A stretch of 23,560 nucleotides of DNA from a virus: positions 1-23,560 of the IMG/VR virus record IMGVR_UViG_3300044971_000508; one strand, written 5' to 3'. The notes below the pieces were generated by a model. The model did not search any database. It was not told where the DNA came from and worked only from the letters and a program-made list of their open reading frames with translations. Positions 1,534 to 18,590 of the stretch are shown here, piece by piece. Position 1 is the first letter of the stretch. Each line of letters starts with the position of its first letter. The position numbers and the translations under genes are program-made.

Positions 1534-2664
1534 TTATCTTAATTGGCTAAAGCGTGTTTGATTAATGTCAATATCTACCTCAAAAACTCTTAATCTATTA
1601 TTGACATATTTGCTATATTCAAAATTTGTATTCTTAATGCTTACTGGATAAAAATAACCATCCAACTCAAAGTAAACTTGCGGTGAGTCAATTAACTCTG
1701 CAAGCCATTCAAATTGGCTATCTGTCGGTGCATTCATTGTAAGCTTATAGGCATGATCTTTTTTATTTAGATAGTTCACCTTGCTATCAACATACTTTTT
1801 ATTGGCATCATAATAAGTAACAGATGACGCGCCTAAAGTGTAGTCTCTTTTTTCATAAGACTTTCTTTGCACGTCCATTGTTAGCCTTGATGCTAGATCA
1901 AATTTAGCAGTGTCAAACATGCCTAGGTGATTCATAAAGTGTAGGTTGTAGCTAGTATATTTAGGATTGCACTCCAAATTAACTCTATATGTGCTTGTGC
2001 CTATTGTGATTGTATAGTATTTCACAGATGATGTGATCACGGCAGTAGGGTTGTTTAAAGCCGGCGATCCTACGTTAAGCTGCGCAAATGCTTTAGTGCT
2101 ACCTAGCGAATAAGTAGTATCTGCAATCTTAACATTGCTATAATTGTAAGTTGACACAACCAGTCCACTCACATCCTTTGCGCCAATGTATATATTTTCT
2201 CCTAGTTTTGCATTTATTTCTTCTGGCCTATTGCTTAATGCTTTTCCATTGTAAACGCTTAAGTCTGTGACTTTACGCTCAAATGTAGGAGCCACAAAAT
2301 TATAAGCAGTAACATTGCCACTGGCTAAGTTTAAATAAGTCACGCCGCTATATTCCTCACCGATCCTATATTGATAAGATTGTGCTATTTGTCCGCTAAC
2401 ATTTGGCTCGCACATTAAGACGCTTGTATTTGGTGTAAGCCACTGGTAAGTCATTGTATTTCTTATGATAGGCCCAGCATCAAAATACCCGATGCCGTTT
2501 GATGGATCTGGGTAAAGCTTAACTCTTACTTGTTGCGCTCCGCCAACGTAAAGATCAACAACATACTTTAAGTCTGCGCTTGTTATGTTTGAGTCAAAAA
2601 TATGCCAAAGAGTGTCTTGCACCGATGGACTGCCACTTGGATAACCTAAGTTTGTTATTGCCAT
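1534..2664 (-). CDS. Conserved phage structural protein, probably tail
   Basis: A 376-residue protein beginning MAITNLGYPSGSPSVQDTLW. It looks beta-rich, with many Tyr, Asn and Thr and few Cys. Recognisable stretches are YFDAGPIIRNTMTYQW near residue 60, NRPEEINAKL near 145 and a segment with LECNPKYTSYNLHFMNHLG and FDLASRLTMDV around 230-265. I recall similar proteins beside the neighbouring >510-residue protein in marine and freshwater Bacteroidetes phages, with no assigned function. Its ATG shares one base with the stop of the upstream gene (TAATG), which suggests translational coupling. A structural tail role is inferred from gene order after terminase; a baseplate or tail-tip protein is the likeliest alternative. 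Confidence 0.8.
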   Translation of the reverse strand: MAITNLGYPSGSPSVQDTLWHIFDSNITSADLKYVVDLYVGGAQQVRVKLYPDPSNGIGYFDAGPIIRNTMTYQWLTPNTSVLMCEPNVSGQIAQSYQYRIGEEYSGVTYLNLASGNVTAYNFVAPTFERKVTDLSVYNGKALSNRPEEINAKLGENIYIGAKDVSGLVVSTYNYSNVKIADTTYSLGSTKAFAQLNVGSPALNNPTAVITSSVKYYTITIGTSTYRVNLECNPKYTSYNLHFMNHLGMFDTAKFDLASRLTMDVQRKSYEKRDYTLGASSVTYYDANKKYVDSKVNYLNKKDHAYKLTMNAPTDSQFEWLAELIDSPQVYFELDGYFYPVSIKNTNFEYSKYVNNRLRVFEVDIDINQTRFSQLR

Positions 2665-3320
2665 TATTTATTACTTTTATTCAAATTAATTCTCTCAAAT
2701 GTAATCACAATGTCCGATTCTATTGCCTCCGCCATCTTAACCTCAAAATTCTCAAATGTCTTGTTAAAGGCATCCGTGAAATAGTTAGTTGTTTTTATAC
2801 CGAACTTTTTAATTAAGTAAGATAAAGTCTCAACTTGCCTATCAATTAAAGATCCTTTTTTGCTAAAGCTTACGCCTATTCTTTCGCCACCTTTACCTAG
2901 CGCCTTGTCATTTGTTACGCTTGTGATCTTTGCTTTCCCACTCTGTATGTATTTTTTTAGCGATGCTCGGCCGCTTGCTGGCATGCCATAGTTCTTGTAT
3001 TGATATGGTGACTTAGGTGCATTTGATGAACTATCAACACCTTTTACCCCCTCATTGGGATAGTCATAATAGTCAAGCATCCTTAGTCTAAATATCGTTG
3101 CACCATTTTGCTCAATGATCTCTGGGATCATATTACTAAGCAAATCACCACTACCGACAACCTTTTTATTGTTGGCAAAATAGCTAATATTTTTTAAAAA
3201 TTCCTCACCATATTGCTCAAGCACGCCATTTACCACACCAAACTCTATGATGTCAGTACCACCAAAATCGCCGCCTTCCCTAAGAAAGTCCGCTTGTGCT
3301 TTGTTTATATTGATGCTCAT
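2664..3320 (-). CDS. Probable head-tail connector/tail-completion protein (HK97 gp10-like logic)
   Basis: A 218-residue, Lys-rich protein. An N-terminal helical stretch (LEQYGEEFLKNISYF) is followed by GSGDLLSNMIPEI near residue 57, a YYDYPNEGVKGVD segment near 85 and a C-terminal part with RQVETLSYLIKKFGIKTTNY. The order 'helix, GSGdL, hydrophobic strands, YYdY.n.GVkG, KxGIkTTxFF-like end' matches the general pattern of HK97 gp10-type tail-completion proteins. That is pattern recognition rather than a proven homology. The ATG at 3320 lies inside the end of the frameshifted reading frame upstream (41-base overlap), and the stop overlaps the next ATG. No enzymatic residues were seen. Confidence 0.72.
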   Translation of the reverse strand: MSININKAQADFLREGGDFGGTDIIEFGVVNGVLEQYGEEFLKNISYFANNKKVVGSGDLLSNMIPEIIEQNGATIFRLRMLDYYDYPNEGVKGVDSSSNAPKSPYQYKNYGMPASGRASLKKYIQSGKAKITSVTNDKALGKGGERIGVSFSKKGSLIDRQVETLSYLIKKFGIKTTNYFTDAFNKTFENFEVKMAEAIESDIVITFERINLNKSNK

Positions 3321-3564
3321 CTAGTTGCTTTTTACTTTTTAAATAGGACAAATCATTTAGAAACTGAATAACTGATAAGTCATAAACTTGATCTAAAGGT
3401 ATATTTTCAAACTCACTTACTTGCTTTGCATTGAATACCCACCCCCAATTGCTTGCAAAACTTTCCTCAATTGTTGCACTCTTTTTTTGTCTAGCTTCCT
3501 CAAGTTCATTTCCGCCGTCAAACAATCCATCGTATTGTTGGTTGAAGCTTTTAAGACTTGATAA
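3280..3564 (-). CDS. -1 frameshift extension of the 4055 gene (C-terminal domain)
   Basis: In the -1 frame the sequence is open from 3591 to a stop at 3280, overlapping the zero frame. It has no ATG; the only plausible independent start is a TTG at 3525. If ribosomes slip back one base on the T9 run at 3563-3571, translation continues as LSSLKSFNQQYDGLFDGG, then ATIEESFASNWGWVFNAK and IPLDQVYDLSVIQFLNDL, ending near the next gene's start. The fusion would be about 258 residues (164 before plus 94 after the slip). The WGW-x(n)-L-x-FLNxLSYLKxKK pattern resembles a domain I recall from single-frame Bacteroidetes phage proteins. This supports a real fusion, either by programmed frameshift or because one base is missing or extra in the homopolymer. 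Confidence 0.65.
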   Translation of the reverse strand, partial: LSSLKSFNQQYDGLFDGGNELEEARQKKSATIEESFASNWGWVFNAKQVSEFENIPLDQVYDLSVIQFLNDLSYLKSKKQLDEHQYKQSTSGLS

Positions 3565-4055
3565 AAAAAAACCATTGCAAAATATCCGTGCTTAAAGTTT
3601 GCTTGTTTCATATCGTTTGCATATTCCTCATGCTTAGACACATCGTACTTTTGTTTGACAAAGTTAAGCTTGCGCCAACTCCATCTCATAGGAGTACAAA
3701 TGCTGGCAAGTATATTGTGCATGTTGATAATAGGATCATCTTTACTAAATGTCAAGACCTCGATATATCGCCCAGTGTTAAATGGAGGCTTTATGTCAAA
3801 ATTTAAATGATACACCTTATTGTTGCAATATATGATCTGCTTAGGCTTTGCCATTGTTGCCTCATTTACTTTTATGTCAAAGGCATTGTGTAGCTTTTGA
3901 CATAATACTGCAAACTTTTTAATTGGCATAGCGTCAATCTCTGCCTCGCTTTTATCAAGCAATACTTGTACTAGCCTAGTTGCCTTTAAAAATTCATCTG
4001 TCTCAAGTGTTGCTATTGATTGTAGCTTTTGGAATTTGTCAATCGTTAACTTCAT
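3417..4055 (-). CDS. Tail-assembly-chaperone-like protein, unshifted product
   Basis: A 212-residue protein in the zero frame, beginning MKLTIDKFQKLQSIATLE, starting 18 bases after terminase ends. The first ~160 residues look like an ordinary folded helical protein (PPFNTGRYIEVLTFSKDD, MHNILASICTPMRWSWRK). At codons 161-164 it reads GTT TTT TTT TAT through a run of nine T. After this the zero frame yields about 48 residues ending GGGYSMQSK that are Lys/Arg/Gln-rich and look less like the rest. In the -1 frame the sequence stays open and encodes a WGWVFNAKQVSEFE segment that looks like the natural C-terminus. The gene is in the position and format of the G/GT tail assembly chaperones, known for -1 frameshifting. 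Sequence and family identity are not proven. Confidence 0.7.
   Translation of the reverse strand: MKLTIDKFQKLQSIATLETDEFLKATRLVQVLLDKSEAEIDAMPIKKFAVLCQKLHNAFDIKVNEATMAKPKQIIYCNNKVYHLNFDIKPPFNTGRYIEVLTFSKDDPIINMHNILASICTPMRWSWRKLNFVKQKYDVSKHEEYANDMKQANFKHGYFAMVFFYQVLKASTNNTMDCLTAEMNLRKLDKKRVQQLRKVLQAIGGGYSMQSK
3562..3571 (-). promoter_or_regulatory. Candidate -1 ribosomal frameshift slippery site (T9)
   Basis: The minus strand reads G-GTT-TTT-TTT-TAT in the zero frame, which contains T-TTT-TTT, a valid X-XXY-YYZ slippery heptamer. A one-base slip back changes the next codon from TAT to TTA and enters a frame open for another 94 codons. I did not identify a convincing downstream pseudoknot by eye. 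Confidence 0.6.
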
Positions 4056-4073: not shown

Positions 4074-5240
4074 TTATATAACATGGTATTTACCAACTTG
4101 CTTGTGATCAATACGGCATTTATTTGCCAGAGCCAAAGCGATTACGCAGTCATCATGAAAGCCTTGCGGTGCAGAGTACCTCACGCCGGTAGGTGTGAAT
4201 GTGTACTCAAAAACCTCCAACTCTTGTTTAATTGGGCCATCTGGATAGCTGATCGACTTAGTTTGGATTGCACTGCTTAGGCTCTCAAGCAATTGCTGCT
4301 TGCTTGTAGCCGTAAACTTAAAGCCGTGCATCTGTGTGAACTTCTTTTGCAACTCTTCAACTATGGCATCACCCACACCAGTGCTATCAATTACGATCGG
4401 CAGATTCTTTGGCAATCTTAAGATTGTCTCTTTAGTTTGCATCCAGTCTTTTTGAAAGCGCTCAAAATGTACCACATTGCCTTGCTTGTCCATGCCTATG
4501 ATCACTGACCAGTCCACAGATTTGGCCAAGTCAATGCCATAATATGCAGCTACGCCTTTTGTTTCTTTTGTGCATGCATAGATGAAATCGCTACCAAAAG
4601 GGTTGGCTGCATTTTCCATTGGATCGGCCATGTACTCTTGCTTGAATACCACTGCTGGCAATTGTGCTGCTGCTGCGTCAATTTCTGTGGGATCGATGTG
4701 TGGATTGTCATAGGTAGTAAATTTAAACGATTCCCAGTTAGGCTCACCGCCACGCATGAACATGCTATAAAAGTAATTCTTACCTCTAGGCGTGCTTAAA
4801 AATATAGCCTTGCCTTTGTAGTCAGTAAGCGTTGGCCTTATTGAATTATTCCAGCCATCCTCTAGATTTGGAATGTAGGATGCCTCATCTATGATCACCA
4901 GATGATACTTAGTACCACGCATTGCATCAAGCCTCTCACCAGTATAAAAGCGAACTGATCCGCCAGTGACAAAGTCAATTAGCAAATCAGTCTCATTCTT
5001 TTTATAAACCTTATCTGGTAGTATCTTACATATTTCCTTAAAAAACATCTTGCCAAGCTGATACGTTGGCGTAATGTATGCAACATGTTGTCTCTTCAAT
5101 CCGGTCTCAATAGATATGTTTTGACTGATTAATGACTTGCCAAACCTTCGACCACACATCATCACTCTAAAACGAGCCTCCGAGTCAAGCACTTGCTTTT
5201 GTGCTGGATGTGGCTTAGGTAGTTTTATGTCAAGATTCAT
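4074..5240 (-). CDS. terL: Terminase large subunit
   Basis: The ATP-driven DNA-packaging motor and headful nuclease, acting at the capsid portal. The 388-residue protein has a Walker A motif at residues 30-36 (GRRFGKS), Walker B at 116-120 (IIDEA) and the coupling motif LSTPRG at 149-154. The RNase-H-like nuclease domain begins near residue 234 with YGIDLAK (D237), followed by VIDSTGVGD (D285, D291) and FHDDCVIALA (D363/D364), the expected acidic cluster. The length is slightly short for the family (usually 400-550), but both domains are complete. It overlaps the small-subunit gene by 11 bases. The gene downstream is not a portal gene, which is unusual. Confidence 0.96.
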   Translation of the reverse strand: MNLDIKLPKPHPAQKQVLDSEARFRVMMCGRRFGKSLISQNISIETGLKRQHVAYITPTYQLGKMFFKEICKILPDKVYKKNETDLLIDFVTGGSVRFYTGERLDAMRGTKYHLVIIDEASYIPNLEDGWNNSIRPTLTDYKGKAIFLSTPRGKNYFYSMFMRGGEPNWESFKFTTYDNPHIDPTEIDAAAAQLPAVVFKQEYMADPMENAANPFGSDFIYACTKETKGVAAYYGIDLAKSVDWSVIIGMDKQGNVVHFERFQKDWMQTKETILRLPKNLPIVIDSTGVGDAIVEELQKKFTQMHGFKFTATSKQQLLESLSSAIQTKSISYPDGPIKQELEVFEYTFTPTGVRYSAPQGFHDDCVIALALANKCRIDHKQVGKYHVI

Positions 5241-5658
5241 ACTTGATTGTGATTGTATCTATGTTTGTATTTTCAGTAGTTGCGCGATCAGTCATTCCTA
5301 GTGCATTCTTAGCGTAGAAAATTGCTTTGCCTTCATTTGCTACAATATCAATAGCTAATGACTTAAACATTGTCACAATCCTATTGGCGACCTCATGATA
5401 AGGATGCGTAGGATCTTGCCTTACTTTCCAAAGGCCCATCTTAGTGTAAAATTCAAAGTCATGCTTTCTTAACCAGTGATCTAAGAAATAGTCAATCGTT
5501 GGCACAAAGCGATCTCTAATCTCGACAATCTTGCCCGATCCAGTTGCCACTTGTTTTTGGCCCTCCATGCAATTGTCGCAATATGCAAAGGCCAAGTCCA
5601 TCAATTTCTCTTCATCTATGTCCTTAAACTTTCTTGTCACGCTTTCTCTTATTTCCAT
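5230..5658 (-). CDS. terS: Probable terminase small subunit
   Basis: A 142-residue, mostly helical protein directly upstream of and overlapping the large terminase gene, the standard location for the DNA-recognition subunit of packaging. The C-terminal part reads NEGKAIFYAKNALGMTDRA, matching the 'x-IFxxKxxxGxxD/K' segment often seen near the end of terminase small subunits and related HTH packaging proteins. The middle contains DHWLRKHDFEFYTKMGLW. I cannot place a helix-turn-helix with certainty. The function rests on position plus this segment. Confidence 0.72.
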   Translation of the reverse strand: MEIRESVTRKFKDIDEEKLMDLAFAYCDNCMEGQKQVATGSGKIVEIRDRFVPTIDYFLDHWLRKHDFEFYTKMGLWKVRQDPTHPYHEVANRIVTMFKSLAIDIVANEGKAIFYAKNALGMTDRATTENTNIDTITIKYES

Positions 5659-6248
5659 AGTTTTATATTTTTAGTGCCATCGCGATAGCCTCTTATGTCA
5701 GCTTCATGCTTGGCCCAGTTCTTTTGTAATAGTTCGGTCTTATTGTAGCCATACTCGTCACCCGATGCATGTCCGCCTATATGCTCTGCAAGGCAGTCCA
5801 TCACATAGTAGGTATTAAATCCAGCTATGTTGGCCCTCTCACAATAGTCCAGATCAATAGGCCCATAAGGAAACATGGACTCATTAAAGATGCCGATCTT
5901 ATCAACTACCTTCATGCTAAGTAGCCAGTTGCTTATAATGTGCTGACTCCTAATGCCACGCCTTTCTCTGTCCAAGCTGCTTGCCACAATGCCGGCATCT
6001 GGGTAAGTCTGCAATGCCTCTACTTTTTTAGCAAGCCAGTTCTCTGGCTCAATAATGTCATTTGCTAGATAAGCAATTGCATCATATCCATCTACACCAG
6101 CAATGTCAATAGCTTCATTCATTGCGTTGGCTATGCCTTCTGTATCAATTAAGATAGTTTCAGCATGATAGCCAGTCTTTGTGCAATTATCTATAATGAC
6201 TGATCTAGGTCTTTTGCCATAAATCAAGCCAGCTATTAATACTCTCAT
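5649..6248 (-). CDS. Glycosyltransferase, GT2/GT-A-like, short
   Basis: Likely transfers a sugar from a nucleotide-sugar donor. The 199 residues begin MRVLIAGLIYGKRPRSV and carry AYLANDIIEPENWL at 59-71, corresponding to the donor/metal-binding region of GT2 enzymes (LAND in place of a typical DxD). The acceptor-side pattern GIFNESMFPYGPIDLDYCERA lies at 119-139; GT2 proteins commonly show 'F.EdlDlcxRa' there. The C-terminal tail after residue 150 is short, so this is a minimal enzyme. Its ATG follows directly on the stop of the LpxA-like gene, with no gap. With that gene and the GT4-like gene it forms a cassette just upstream of terminase. Confidence 0.75.
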   Translation of the reverse strand: MRVLIAGLIYGKRPRSVIIDNCTKTGYHAETILIDTEGIANAMNEAIDIAGVDGYDAIAYLANDIIEPENWLAKKVEALQTYPDAGIVASSLDRERRGIRSQHIISNWLLSMKVVDKIGIFNESMFPYGPIDLDYCERANIAGFNTYYVMDCLAEHIGGHASGDEYGYNKTELLQKNWAKHEADIRGYRDGTKNIKLWK

Positions 6249-6734
6249 TTAAAATATGTTTTTGCCTATTTCTTTTGCTGGGTTGCCAGCATACTTTGTC
6301 GAATGTGTAGTGTGTAGCTTTCTTGTCACCACGGCACCCATTCCGATCATGCAACCTTTAGCAATGATTTGCTTTTGATGGATCACTGCATTAAGTCCAA
6401 TGTTGCAGCCATCACCGACAATCGTATGGCCACCAACCTTTGCACCGCAACTGATCGTCACATTGTTACCGATCACACAATCATGGCCTACATGTGAATG
6501 CTTAAGCATCCAAACACCAGCACCGATTATTGTCTTATCAATTGTGCCGGCATCAATAGTCACATGACCAGTGATCACGCAGTCATCACCGATCACAACT
6601 TCGCCTATTGGCGCATTCCAGAATAGCTTATGCTCTGCTGGCTCACCGATCACACAATATGGCCCGATGTAAACATTGTCACCTAGTGTGACATTTGGCC
6701 CTACTATGGCCGTTTTATGAATAAATGTACTCAT
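6249..6734 (-). CDS. LpxA-like hexapeptide-repeat acyl/acetyltransferase
   Basis: The 161-residue protein is almost entirely left-handed beta-helix hexapeptide repeats ([IV]-G-x-x-x-x), for example VGPNVTLGDNVYIGPYCVIG at 11-30. HVGHDCVIGNNVTISCGAKV at 81-100 resembles the catalytic histidine region of LpxA-type acyltransferases. It ends TKYAGNPAKEIGKN, the 'aGxPAk' closure typical of sugar O/N-acetyltransferases. It is much shorter than housekeeping LpxA (about 260) and lacks a C-terminal helical domain, so lipid A synthesis is unlikely. Acetylation of a sugar on a surface glycan or its nucleotide precursor is more plausible. The reading frame overlaps the upstream small gene by 20 bases. 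Confidence 0.85.
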   Translation of the reverse strand: MSTFIHKTAIVGPNVTLGDNVYIGPYCVIGEPAEHKLFWNAPIGEVVIGDDCVITGHVTIDAGTIDKTIIGAGVWMLKHSHVGHDCVIGNNVTISCGAKVGGHTIVGDGCNIGLNAVIHQKQIIAKGCMIGMGAVVTRKLHTTHSTKYAGNPAKEIGKNIF

Positions 6735-6957
6735 TATATGTTTTATAAACGTTAACTAAAAATGATCCCACGCATGCACCACATCTGCCGTTGTATGTGT
6801 AGTACGGATCTTTTATGCGCATGATTTCTACCAGTTCATTTTGGATCTCATGTGTAAATCCAACCAGTTCACCAGTTGTCTTGAATAGATCATAAAAATG
6901 CTTATGCCTTAACAAGGTCTGCAAATGCCGATCGTCTAGCTTCATTAATTCGCTCAT
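6715..6957 (-). CDS. Small conserved protein of unknown function with a CGAC motif
   Basis: I place the start at the ATG at 6957 (80 residues, MSELMKLDDRHLQTLLRHKH), because the extension to 6993 lies inside the upstream glycosyltransferase and begins with non-conserved-looking residues. The protein is helical in its first 50 residues and ends PYYTYNGRCGACVGSFLVNVYKTYNEY, with two Cys in a CGAC arrangement. I vaguely recall short Bacteroidetes phage proteins with a similar CGxC end. One CxxC pair is too few for a classical zinc ribbon unless the protein dimerises. It overlaps both neighbours (56 and 20 bases), so it is clearly embedded in the operon. Confidence 0.7.
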   Translation of the reverse strand: MSELMKLDDRHLQTLLRHKHFYDLFKTTGELVGFTHEIQNELVEIMRIKDPYYTYNGRCGACVGSFLVNVYKTYNEYIYS

Positions 6958-7927
6958 GATTGTATTTGTTTTTTGCCCACTCAAAAAGATCATTGCCCAT
7001 CTTGATTCTTTTATCTGGGTTGTTTACTAAATATGATAAATGCTTAAACCAGTCTGCTTGATTTTTTACCCATAGCACTGGTGCATCTTTGTCTAGGTTG
7101 TATGGCTCAACATCGCTCACAATCACTGCCACTCTTTTAGCTGCCGCCTCAAGTAGCTTTAAATTACTTTTGCTCGCATGCCATGGTGACTCTTGCAAAG
7201 GTACAACCATAATGTCTGCATGTTTAAAATGCTCCATGTAATTGCTTGGCAATTCGCTAATAAGTTTTCTATTAGCTAACTTGCCGCCATTCGTAAACAT
7301 TGAATGTATCTTATCCCAGTATGATTTGCTCACTGGATCTGTGTCAGTATATCCGCCAAGCACCATCTCAATATCTTTTAATGCAGTCAGTCTTTTGAAA
7401 GGATTTGCAAGCAACTTGATGTCCTCAAGGTGTGTAGATCCGCCGGCCCAAAAGATACGAGTCTTGTCGCTATCGTATTTGTCAGCATTGTATTGATGCT
7501 CACCATAAGGTATGCAGTTAGGCAGTACTATCACATTTTTATTGTACTTGCTTACCTTGTCAGCAATCCTAGCATTTGTGCATGTCACTAGATCAGCATT
7601 AAAGATGTTGTTAATGATACGCTTTTTGTGCGCCTCATATCCATAATACAAAGGATGGTTGTAAGGCAATTCCCAGTCATCATCCAGATCCATCACTACT
7701 TTAAAGTGCTGCTTTGTTTCATCCCAATCAATATCAAATTGACTGAATCTATTGTACAATAAAATATCAAACTGCCTCTCTTCAAGTATTTCTTTTGTAG
7801 GCACATTGCACACATGGTTGTATGAATCTGGCAAGAATGATAAAGGCAGCATAACTCTATGCCATCCGCAACCGCTTAGCTTTTGTGTGATGCCAAGTAC
7901 TTGTATAATCTTATCTGCCTTGTCCAC
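6902..7927 (-). CDS. Glycosyltransferase, GT4/GT-B-like
   Basis: A 341-residue enzyme of GT-B layout. The N-terminal Rossmann half opens IIQVLGITQKLSGCGWHRVM, with the G-rich acceptor loop. The C-terminal half has RIFWAGGSTHLEDIKLL, then DIMVVPLQESPWHASKSN and LLEAAAKRVAVIVSDVEPY. The 'pl.xs.....s.kllEaaa....vi.sdv.py' run is the donor-binding signature of GT4 family members, although the usual EX7E is not exact (the acidic positions are E of LQES and E of LLEA). The start is a GTG at 7927; an in-frame stop at 7980-7982 precludes a much longer protein. It overlaps the end of the 40-codon gene, suggesting coupled translation. The substrate is unknown. Confidence 0.85.
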   Translation of the reverse strand: MDKADKIIQVLGITQKLSGCGWHRVMLPLSFLPDSYNHVCNVPTKEILEERQFDILLYNRFSQFDIDWDETKQHFKVVMDLDDDWELPYNHPLYYGYEAHKKRIINNIFNADLVTCTNARIADKVSKYNKNVIVLPNCIPYGEHQYNADKYDSDKTRIFWAGGSTHLEDIKLLANPFKRLTALKDIEMVLGGYTDTDPVSKSYWDKIHSMFTNGGKLANRKLISELPSNYMEHFKHADIMVVPLQESPWHASKSNLKLLEAAAKRVAVIVSDVEPYNLDKDAPVLWVKNQADWFKHLSYLVNNPDKRIKMGNDLFEWAKNKYNHERINEARRSAFADLVKA

Positions 7928-17796: not shown

Positions 17797-18142
17797 TTAC
17801 ATTAAATTATACACTGGTTGCAATGATCATGCATTAAAAAGGATTGAGGCAATGCTTGAGCCTAGATTGCAACCAGTAGTGGTAGAAAAAATAGTAAAAG
17901 TTGAAAAAATTGTGCATCGTAAATTAAAGCCTAAAGTAGTCATTGAAAAATGGGCAGAGACTTACTTTGCAGAAAATGGCTTAACGTACAAGCAAATGCT
18001 AGACAGATCACGCAAACAAGAAATTGTTGATCTAAGGTATGACTTTATAAAAGCCGCTTATTTTAACGGCTATAATTGTACCTCAATTGCTAGGTTTCTA
18101 AAGCGCGATCACTCAACTATTATTTATGCAATAAATAGCTAG
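17780..18142 (+). CDS. Free-standing DnaA domain IV-like DNA-binding protein
   Basis: 120 residues. Residues 77-119 (RSRKQEIVDLRYDFIKAAYF, then NGYNCTSIARFLKRDHSTII and YAINS) match the C-terminal DNA-binding domain of DnaA: basic-loop-type SRKxEIV, a helix-turn-helix and the DHST signature (110-113) that reads bases in DnaA boxes. Everything else in DnaA is missing: no AAA+ ATPase. Residues 35-45 contain VEKIVKVEKIV, a repeat suggesting a short coiled coil, so it may dimerise. It could recruit replication proteins to an origin or regulate transcription. Its last bases overlap the endolysin gene on the other strand, 18120-18142. Confidence 0.85.
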   Translation: MKEILNYIKLYTGCNDHALKRIEAMLEPRLQPVVVEKIVKVEKIVHRKLKPKVVIEKWAETYFAENGLTYKQMLDRSRKQEIVDLRYDFIKAAYFNGYNCTSIARFLKRDHSTIIYAINS

Positions 18143-18590
18143 TTCCCCCACTAGCATTTCGCACGGCTCGCAAAGATTCTTTTCTTTGTGGGCCGTTTGC
18201 TTTAAAGCTTACATGCACCCAGTCTGGGTTATCTTTAGTGCCAAATTCCCAGATTAACTGGTCAAAGTCTAAATTGGCTTTAATATAATTATGCACCATC
18301 TTGTTAGTCACCCCATGACTTGATCCATCCATATCGATGTCAATCGCTTCGCCCTTGCAATGCTGGCTTGTAGCGCTGCCCTTCACGGCCTTATTGAGAG
18401 CCTCGGATCTGTAAGCGGATGAAATATGTATAGGGCATCTAAAGTGCGCTCTAATAGGCTCGAAAATAGCCTCTGCTAGCTTTTTAAAATTCTCTAGATG
18501 TTGCTCTGTTGGCATGTTTGAAATCCCAAGGCGCTTGGCTTGCTCGCTGCGTGTCACCTCGGATAGGCTTAAATGTTCGCTGATCTTCAT
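18120..18590 (-). CDS. M15-family peptidase, probable endolysin
   Basis: 156 residues. The zinc ligands are visible: SQHCKGEAIDID at 76-86 (H77, D84) and WVHVSF at 124-129 (H126), preceded by ISSAYRSEALNKAVKGS at 57-72. This is the M15_3-type D-Ala-D-Ala/peptidoglycan endopeptidase core used by many phage lysins. It should cut peptide cross-bridges in the cell wall. There is no signal peptide, so release would need a holin; membrane-protein genes lie directly upstream. It starts at ATG 18590, inside the end of a 28-codon membrane gene (ATGA). Confidence 0.93.
   Translation of the reverse strand: MKISEHLSLSEVTRSEQAKRLGISNMPTEQHLENFKKLAEAIFEPIRAHFRCPIHISSAYRSEALNKAVKGSATSQHCKGEAIDIDMDGSSHGVTNKMVHNYIKANLDFDQLIWEFGTKDNPDWVHVSFKANGPQRKESLRAVRNASGGTSYLLHK

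Follow-up and report, generated by a model that had tools for sequence, protein, structure and literature searches.

Directly behind the gene for the terminase large subunit (TerL) in the phage DNA analysed here (IMG/VR record IMGVR_UViG_3300044971_000508, the whole 23,560 nucleotides of which are called the window), a minus-strand gene carries a run of nine T residues (T9) beyond which two reading frames stay open. The question raised by this locus is whether one frame has simply been broken in this contig or whether both are used, and, if both are, what the two products might be and at which level the slip takes place. Judged from DNA and predicted proteins, this is, with a probability of about 0.8, a gene with a programmed frameshift from a tailed phage of Bacteroidota type, and most likely encodes the tail assembly chaperone pair of that phage.

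Layout of the gene and its surroundings

A sequence-only reading of the window had described a zero-frame T_TTT_TTT heptamer within the run, and this heptamer was confirmed in the gene that runs from 4055 to 3417 (Table 1). On the plus strand the run is A9, and the zero-frame codons across the slip site are ATG GTT TTT TTT TAT CAA, with the frame continuing for 48 codons beyond the slip. The earlier estimate of 94 open codons in the -1 frame and a product of about 258 residues was also correct: the open codons extend over 3564-3283, the stop is at 3280-3282, and the fusion has 258 aa. Upstream of the slip the -1 frame is open for only 9 codons, and its product has no internal Met, in agreement with the earlier remark that it lacks an ATG of its own; the listed start is a TTG at 3525. 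Treating the extension as a separate gene with its own start was rejected, since the -1 product has no Met and relatives exist in which both parts lie in a single frame. Ordinary reading would give the G-like protein of 212 aa, and at the conserved T9 a fraction of the products would be carried one base back into the 94-aa helical extension, giving the GT-like protein.

Table 1. Coordinates and supporting evidence for the frameshift gene and its neighbours in the window
Feature	Positions	Strand	Evidence
Probable terminase small subunit	5230..5658	-	phrog_606, E=0.00098
Terminase large subunit, directly upstream	4074..5240	-	phrog_2, E=2.3e-46; PF03237
Zero-frame ORF, 212 aa, putative G-like product	3417..4055	-	ATG at 4055; 212 aa in homologues down to 61% identity
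N-terminal part common to both products, 164 codons	3564..4055	-	Near-clade changes at codon positions 1/2/3 of 87/65/256 (third-position bias, zero frame)
Slip site, T9 run with in-frame heptamer T_TTT_TTT at 3570-3564	3563..3571	-	T9 in 177/178 and T10 in 1/178 distinct homologous contexts; no wobble change on tree
Dual-coding overlap, zero and -1 frames	3417..3563	-	Position bias lost (24/37/37); synonymous conservation raised
-1 frame extension, 94 aa and stop, putative GT-like part, WGW motif	3280..3564	-	Variation tracks the -1 frame past the zero-frame stop
218-aa gene, putative structural protein, start inside end of extension ORF	2664..3320	-	Syntenic in relatives
376-aa gene, probable tail protein by position	1534..2664	-	No family match

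The adjacency to a terminase gene, which had been noticed before, also stands. The corresponding genes of a 35-kb relative (G001) run TerS, TerL, the frameshift gene, the genes for proteins of 218, 376 and 1107 aa, a glycosyltransferase-like gene, tape measure, head protease, probable scaffold, probable capsid, two small genes and portal, so that the tape measure gene lies five genes downstream of the frameshift gene.

Several minor observations were made in the same genomes. In the window, glycosyltransferase-like and hexapeptide acyltransferase-like genes are found just upstream of the terminase genes (5649-7927), and in G001 a further glycosyltransferase-like gene separates the tape measure gene from that of the 1107-aa tail protein. 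The lysis-region peptidase of the window (18120-18590) differs from that of G001 (L048:14444-14950) despite a 100% identical 212-aa protein, which looks like gene exchange. A large tail protein of another relative (L034:7514-10636) ends in C-terminal tandem Cys-containing repeats (YRDxNPCSxTYNNYRVNGVNVG), and its G001 homologue has a Thr-rich stretch in place of these repeats.

Conservation of the T9 run and selection on the fusion

The T9 run was found to recur in every survey of homologues. Searching IMG/VR with the 212-aa protein returned 45 relatives, all with T9 in the same phase and the extension in the -1 frame, and 80 loci were retained with a zero-frame protein profile, all with T9; a genome scan gave one further locus, in a Chitinophagaceae MAG, also with T9. 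Scanning with the extension only, a query independent of the slip site, T9 was seen in 79 of 80 loci. A protein of the cultured Nonlabens phage P12024S, gp38, was picked up by a fold search; among the relatives of gp38, T9 was present in 62 of 63 cases and T10 in the remaining one. These sets overlap; after removal of identical contexts, 178 distinct DNA contexts remained, which are not to be counted as independent events, and 177 of them had T9 and one T10, all in slip-compatible phase and followed by a WGW or FGW extension in the -1 frame. Some of these contexts have no BLAST similarity to the window protein. Such recurrence argues that the arrangement is not due to chance, and it supports the programmed -1 fusion that had been proposed.

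The gene of P12024S likewise has no BLAST similarity to the window protein. Its place is immediately behind TerL, its T9 run has the phase seen in the window, and it has a W.W extension in the -1 frame and a matching predicted fold. The link was obtained through the fold search only; when the window protein and two divergent relatives served as tblastn queries against cultured phages, there was no match. The locus (L132; NC_018271, 23136-23830) is deposited as two hypothetical genes, gp38 and gp39 (phrog_32199 and phrog_38404), which are better read as one frameshift gene, and both cultured phages, P12024S and P12024L, carry the arrangement. The assignment of the host phylum as Bacteroidota rests on these Nonlabens phages together with the one contig binned in the Chitinophagaceae MAG.

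Substitutions in the near clade follow the two frames. The third-position bias seen before the slip is lost within the overlap, where both frames are read (Table 1), and past the zero-frame stop 42 of 71 changes are at third codon positions as read in the -1 frame. Excess synonymous conservation, with a mean near 0.03 across most of the N-terminal part, rises to 0.43 at codons 161-170, stays at 0.22-0.31 to codon 200 and then drops back. These codon-position and synonymous-site signatures of dual coding are confined to the overlap, and every representative with V-F-F at the slip site uses identical codons for these residues. The suggestion that the zero-frame tail is the less protein-like of the two was contradicted by these data: the zero-frame length stays at exactly 212 aa across homologues whose identity ranges from 100% to 61%, and the tail is constrained, being under selection jointly with the -1 frame.

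A rare sister group to the slip-site lineages encodes the long form directly. The sole non-T9 locus of the extension-only scan (L277, the same as L197) and its 83% relative L278 join the N-terminal part and the extension in a single open 237-aa frame that lacks T9 (L277:1063-1773 and L278:2501-3211), in the same gene order, behind TerL and before homologues of the 218- and 376-aa genes. The homologue check put forward in the sequence-only reading, on whether the WGW part always follows a slippery run, was answered both ways, the part standing behind T9 or T10 in all 178 contexts and in a single frame in these two. L277 and L278 show that the N-terminus and the extension form one functional protein, and they open the question of whether a short form is required. 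An A_AAA_AAC site in L277 was considered as a reverse shift and dropped, since it is not kept in L278. The codon-position bias, the lost synonymous variation in the overlap and the sister lineage with one open frame together show, on comparative grounds, that the fusion is a selected protein, that both frames of the overlap are coding and that T9 is the conserved site.

An indel in the homopolymer, from sequencing or of biological origin, had been named as the main alternative, with one frame simply broken in this contig. Homopolymers are indeed error-prone, but T9 recurs in nearly all distinct contexts, isolate genomes included, and both frames are under selection. A sequencing indel or pseudogene is ruled out by the runs in homologues, and we give this explanation almost no probability.

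Probable identity as a tail assembly chaperone

The gene appears to represent a family, so far unannotated, with the kind of frameshift known from phage tail assembly chaperones, and a G/GT-type chaperone is the best reading of its identity, suggested by the two-product organisation together with weak matches to PF10109 and phrog_18582. Like the lambda gpG/gpGT type (PMC5009743), it would yield two products from one start, the -1 shift adding a C-terminal domain, and it belongs to the tail module. The shared start of zero-frame product and -1 fusion and a slippery site conserved across homologues are what would be expected of such a pair. It differs from gpG/gpGT in that the slip site is an invariant homopolymer, the zero frame continues well past the slip and no clear sequence similarity is seen. 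The gene also lies behind TerL, not just before the tape measure gene, and so does not occupy the interval from the major tail protein gene to the tape measure gene that is typical of G/GT pairs. This departure from the lambda order makes strict G/GT membership provisional, and the claim is one of G/GT-like working. Gene order varies between phage groups, so the position weakens strict membership only.

Profile searches gave no strong match for any member. Weak matches to Phage_TAC_7 (PF10109, which covers E, 41 or 14) were obtained in 4 of 31 members (best 0.0022) and to phrog_18582, a tail assembly chaperone family, in 4 of 31 (best 0.003); phrog_166, a tail protein family, was matched with a best value of 1e-4. 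These matches sit among one-off chance matches, and the tail families are those that recur across members and in two libraries. Phage_TAC_7 and phrog_18582 are the best functional matches in part of the members, covering in the window protein its helical N-terminal part, although their E-values are only about 0.002-0.02 and most members have no match. When the zero-frame part and the extension were folded as separate pieces, the zero-frame protein was predicted to be mostly helical and the extension helical; searches of the PDB by fold and by sequence profile gave no match to a solved structure.

It is conceivable that the two products are real but serve otherwise in the head-tail module, as a different structural or assembly protein that uses a frameshift. 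The place directly behind TerL would suit such a protein, and the family matches are weak, with none to a solved chaperone structure; the two-product organisation with a helical -1 extension and the recurring matches to two chaperone families speak against it, and we consider it unlikely. The chaperone comparison made from the letters is accordingly kept as the best reading, its family assignment being drawn from organisation and weak profile matches. From this reading we infer the role of a chaperone, namely binding of the tape measure protein and recruitment of tail tube subunits, and a ratio between the two products. Members of the G/GT type bind the tape measure and tail tube proteins, are missing from the virion and are made in a set ratio. 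A tail assembly chaperone would be a probable name for the gene in a large, almost unannotated set of Bacteroidota phages, cultured isolates included, and T9 right after TerL followed by WGW or FGW in the -1 frame provides a simple marker.

Ribosomal or transcriptional slippage

The slip had been assumed to be ribosomal. The in-frame heptamer is present in all contexts; slippage by RNA polymerase is about equally likely, so that the odds between the two levels are about even. In the ribosomal route, ribosomes would slip on U_UUU_UUU to give the fusion. In the polymerase route, RNA polymerase would add one U on T9, and the resulting U10 would give the same fusion with one extra Phe. To our knowledge, all reported chaperone frameshifts are ribosomal.

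A purely ribosomal slip, by tandem tRNA-Phe slippage without a stimulator as in known phage G/GT pairs, is close to an even bet. On this reading T9 is conserved through demands on single bases: the heptamer requires its T residues, the first T of the run is explained by a hydrophobic residue (V, L, I or F) at its codon, and the ninth by Leu in the -1 frame. There is a strong prior for ribosomal shifting in phage chaperones, and chaperone genes in GeneTack tests gave 6-7% frameshifting (PMC3711429). Bacteroidota ribosomes may possibly prefer UUU. No stable pseudoknot-free RNA fold was found downstream of the slip site in 31 representatives (mean z about -0.2 to -0.3), where a stem-loop or pseudoknot would be expected for a stimulated ribosomal -1 shift; some tailed-phage shifts have no stimulator, and efficiency in other G/GT-type chaperones can be low (PMC5009743). 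The eighth T fits less well. A change to C there is silent in both frames (TTT/TTC Phe in the zero frame, TTR/CTR Leu in the -1 frame) and keeps the heptamer, yet it shows 0 changes on the tree of the 178 contexts, compared with 4 to 33 at other T/C wobble sites (those that lie outside the slip site and occur in 150 or more sequences). Frameshifting in E. coli is more efficient at U_UU.C than at U_UU.U (PMC4066793).

Transcriptional slippage calls for an A/T run of about nine that is conserved where the frames meet, which is what this family has; nine A or T is a classical run length in bacteria (PMC1088944; PMC5009743). Elsewhere in the contigs, A/T runs of at least nine number 19 against about 58 expected, a shortage that deepens with length. 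The invariant eighth T, the lack of an RNA fold and this shortage favour a homopolymer requirement, and it may be that the homopolymer itself matters. Stops in the third frame come early after T9 (a mean of 5.9 versus 11.1 codons), which polymerase slippage might favour; this is given little weight because it is partly due to the conserved -1 residues and to shared ancestry. We tentatively suggest, at somewhat less than even odds, that in an entire superfamily of Bacteroidota phages the ratio of the tail-chaperone products is set by the RNA polymerase, slipping on an invariant T9, instead of by the ribosome, and that one sister lineage has given up the frameshift and encodes the long form directly.

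Such slippage would resemble that of Thermus dnaX, Shigella mxiE and IS elements, where the frames also join at a run of nine A/T (nine As for dnaX, a U run for mxiE) and in which long A/T runs are avoided elsewhere (PMC1088944). Unlike in these cases, an in-frame ribosomal heptamer is also present here, and transcriptional slippage is a proposal made from the DNA. At this site, ribosomal and polymerase slippage could be told apart cleanly in a gene for phage assembly. In mxiE, as here, the slipped product is the longer one (PMC1088944).
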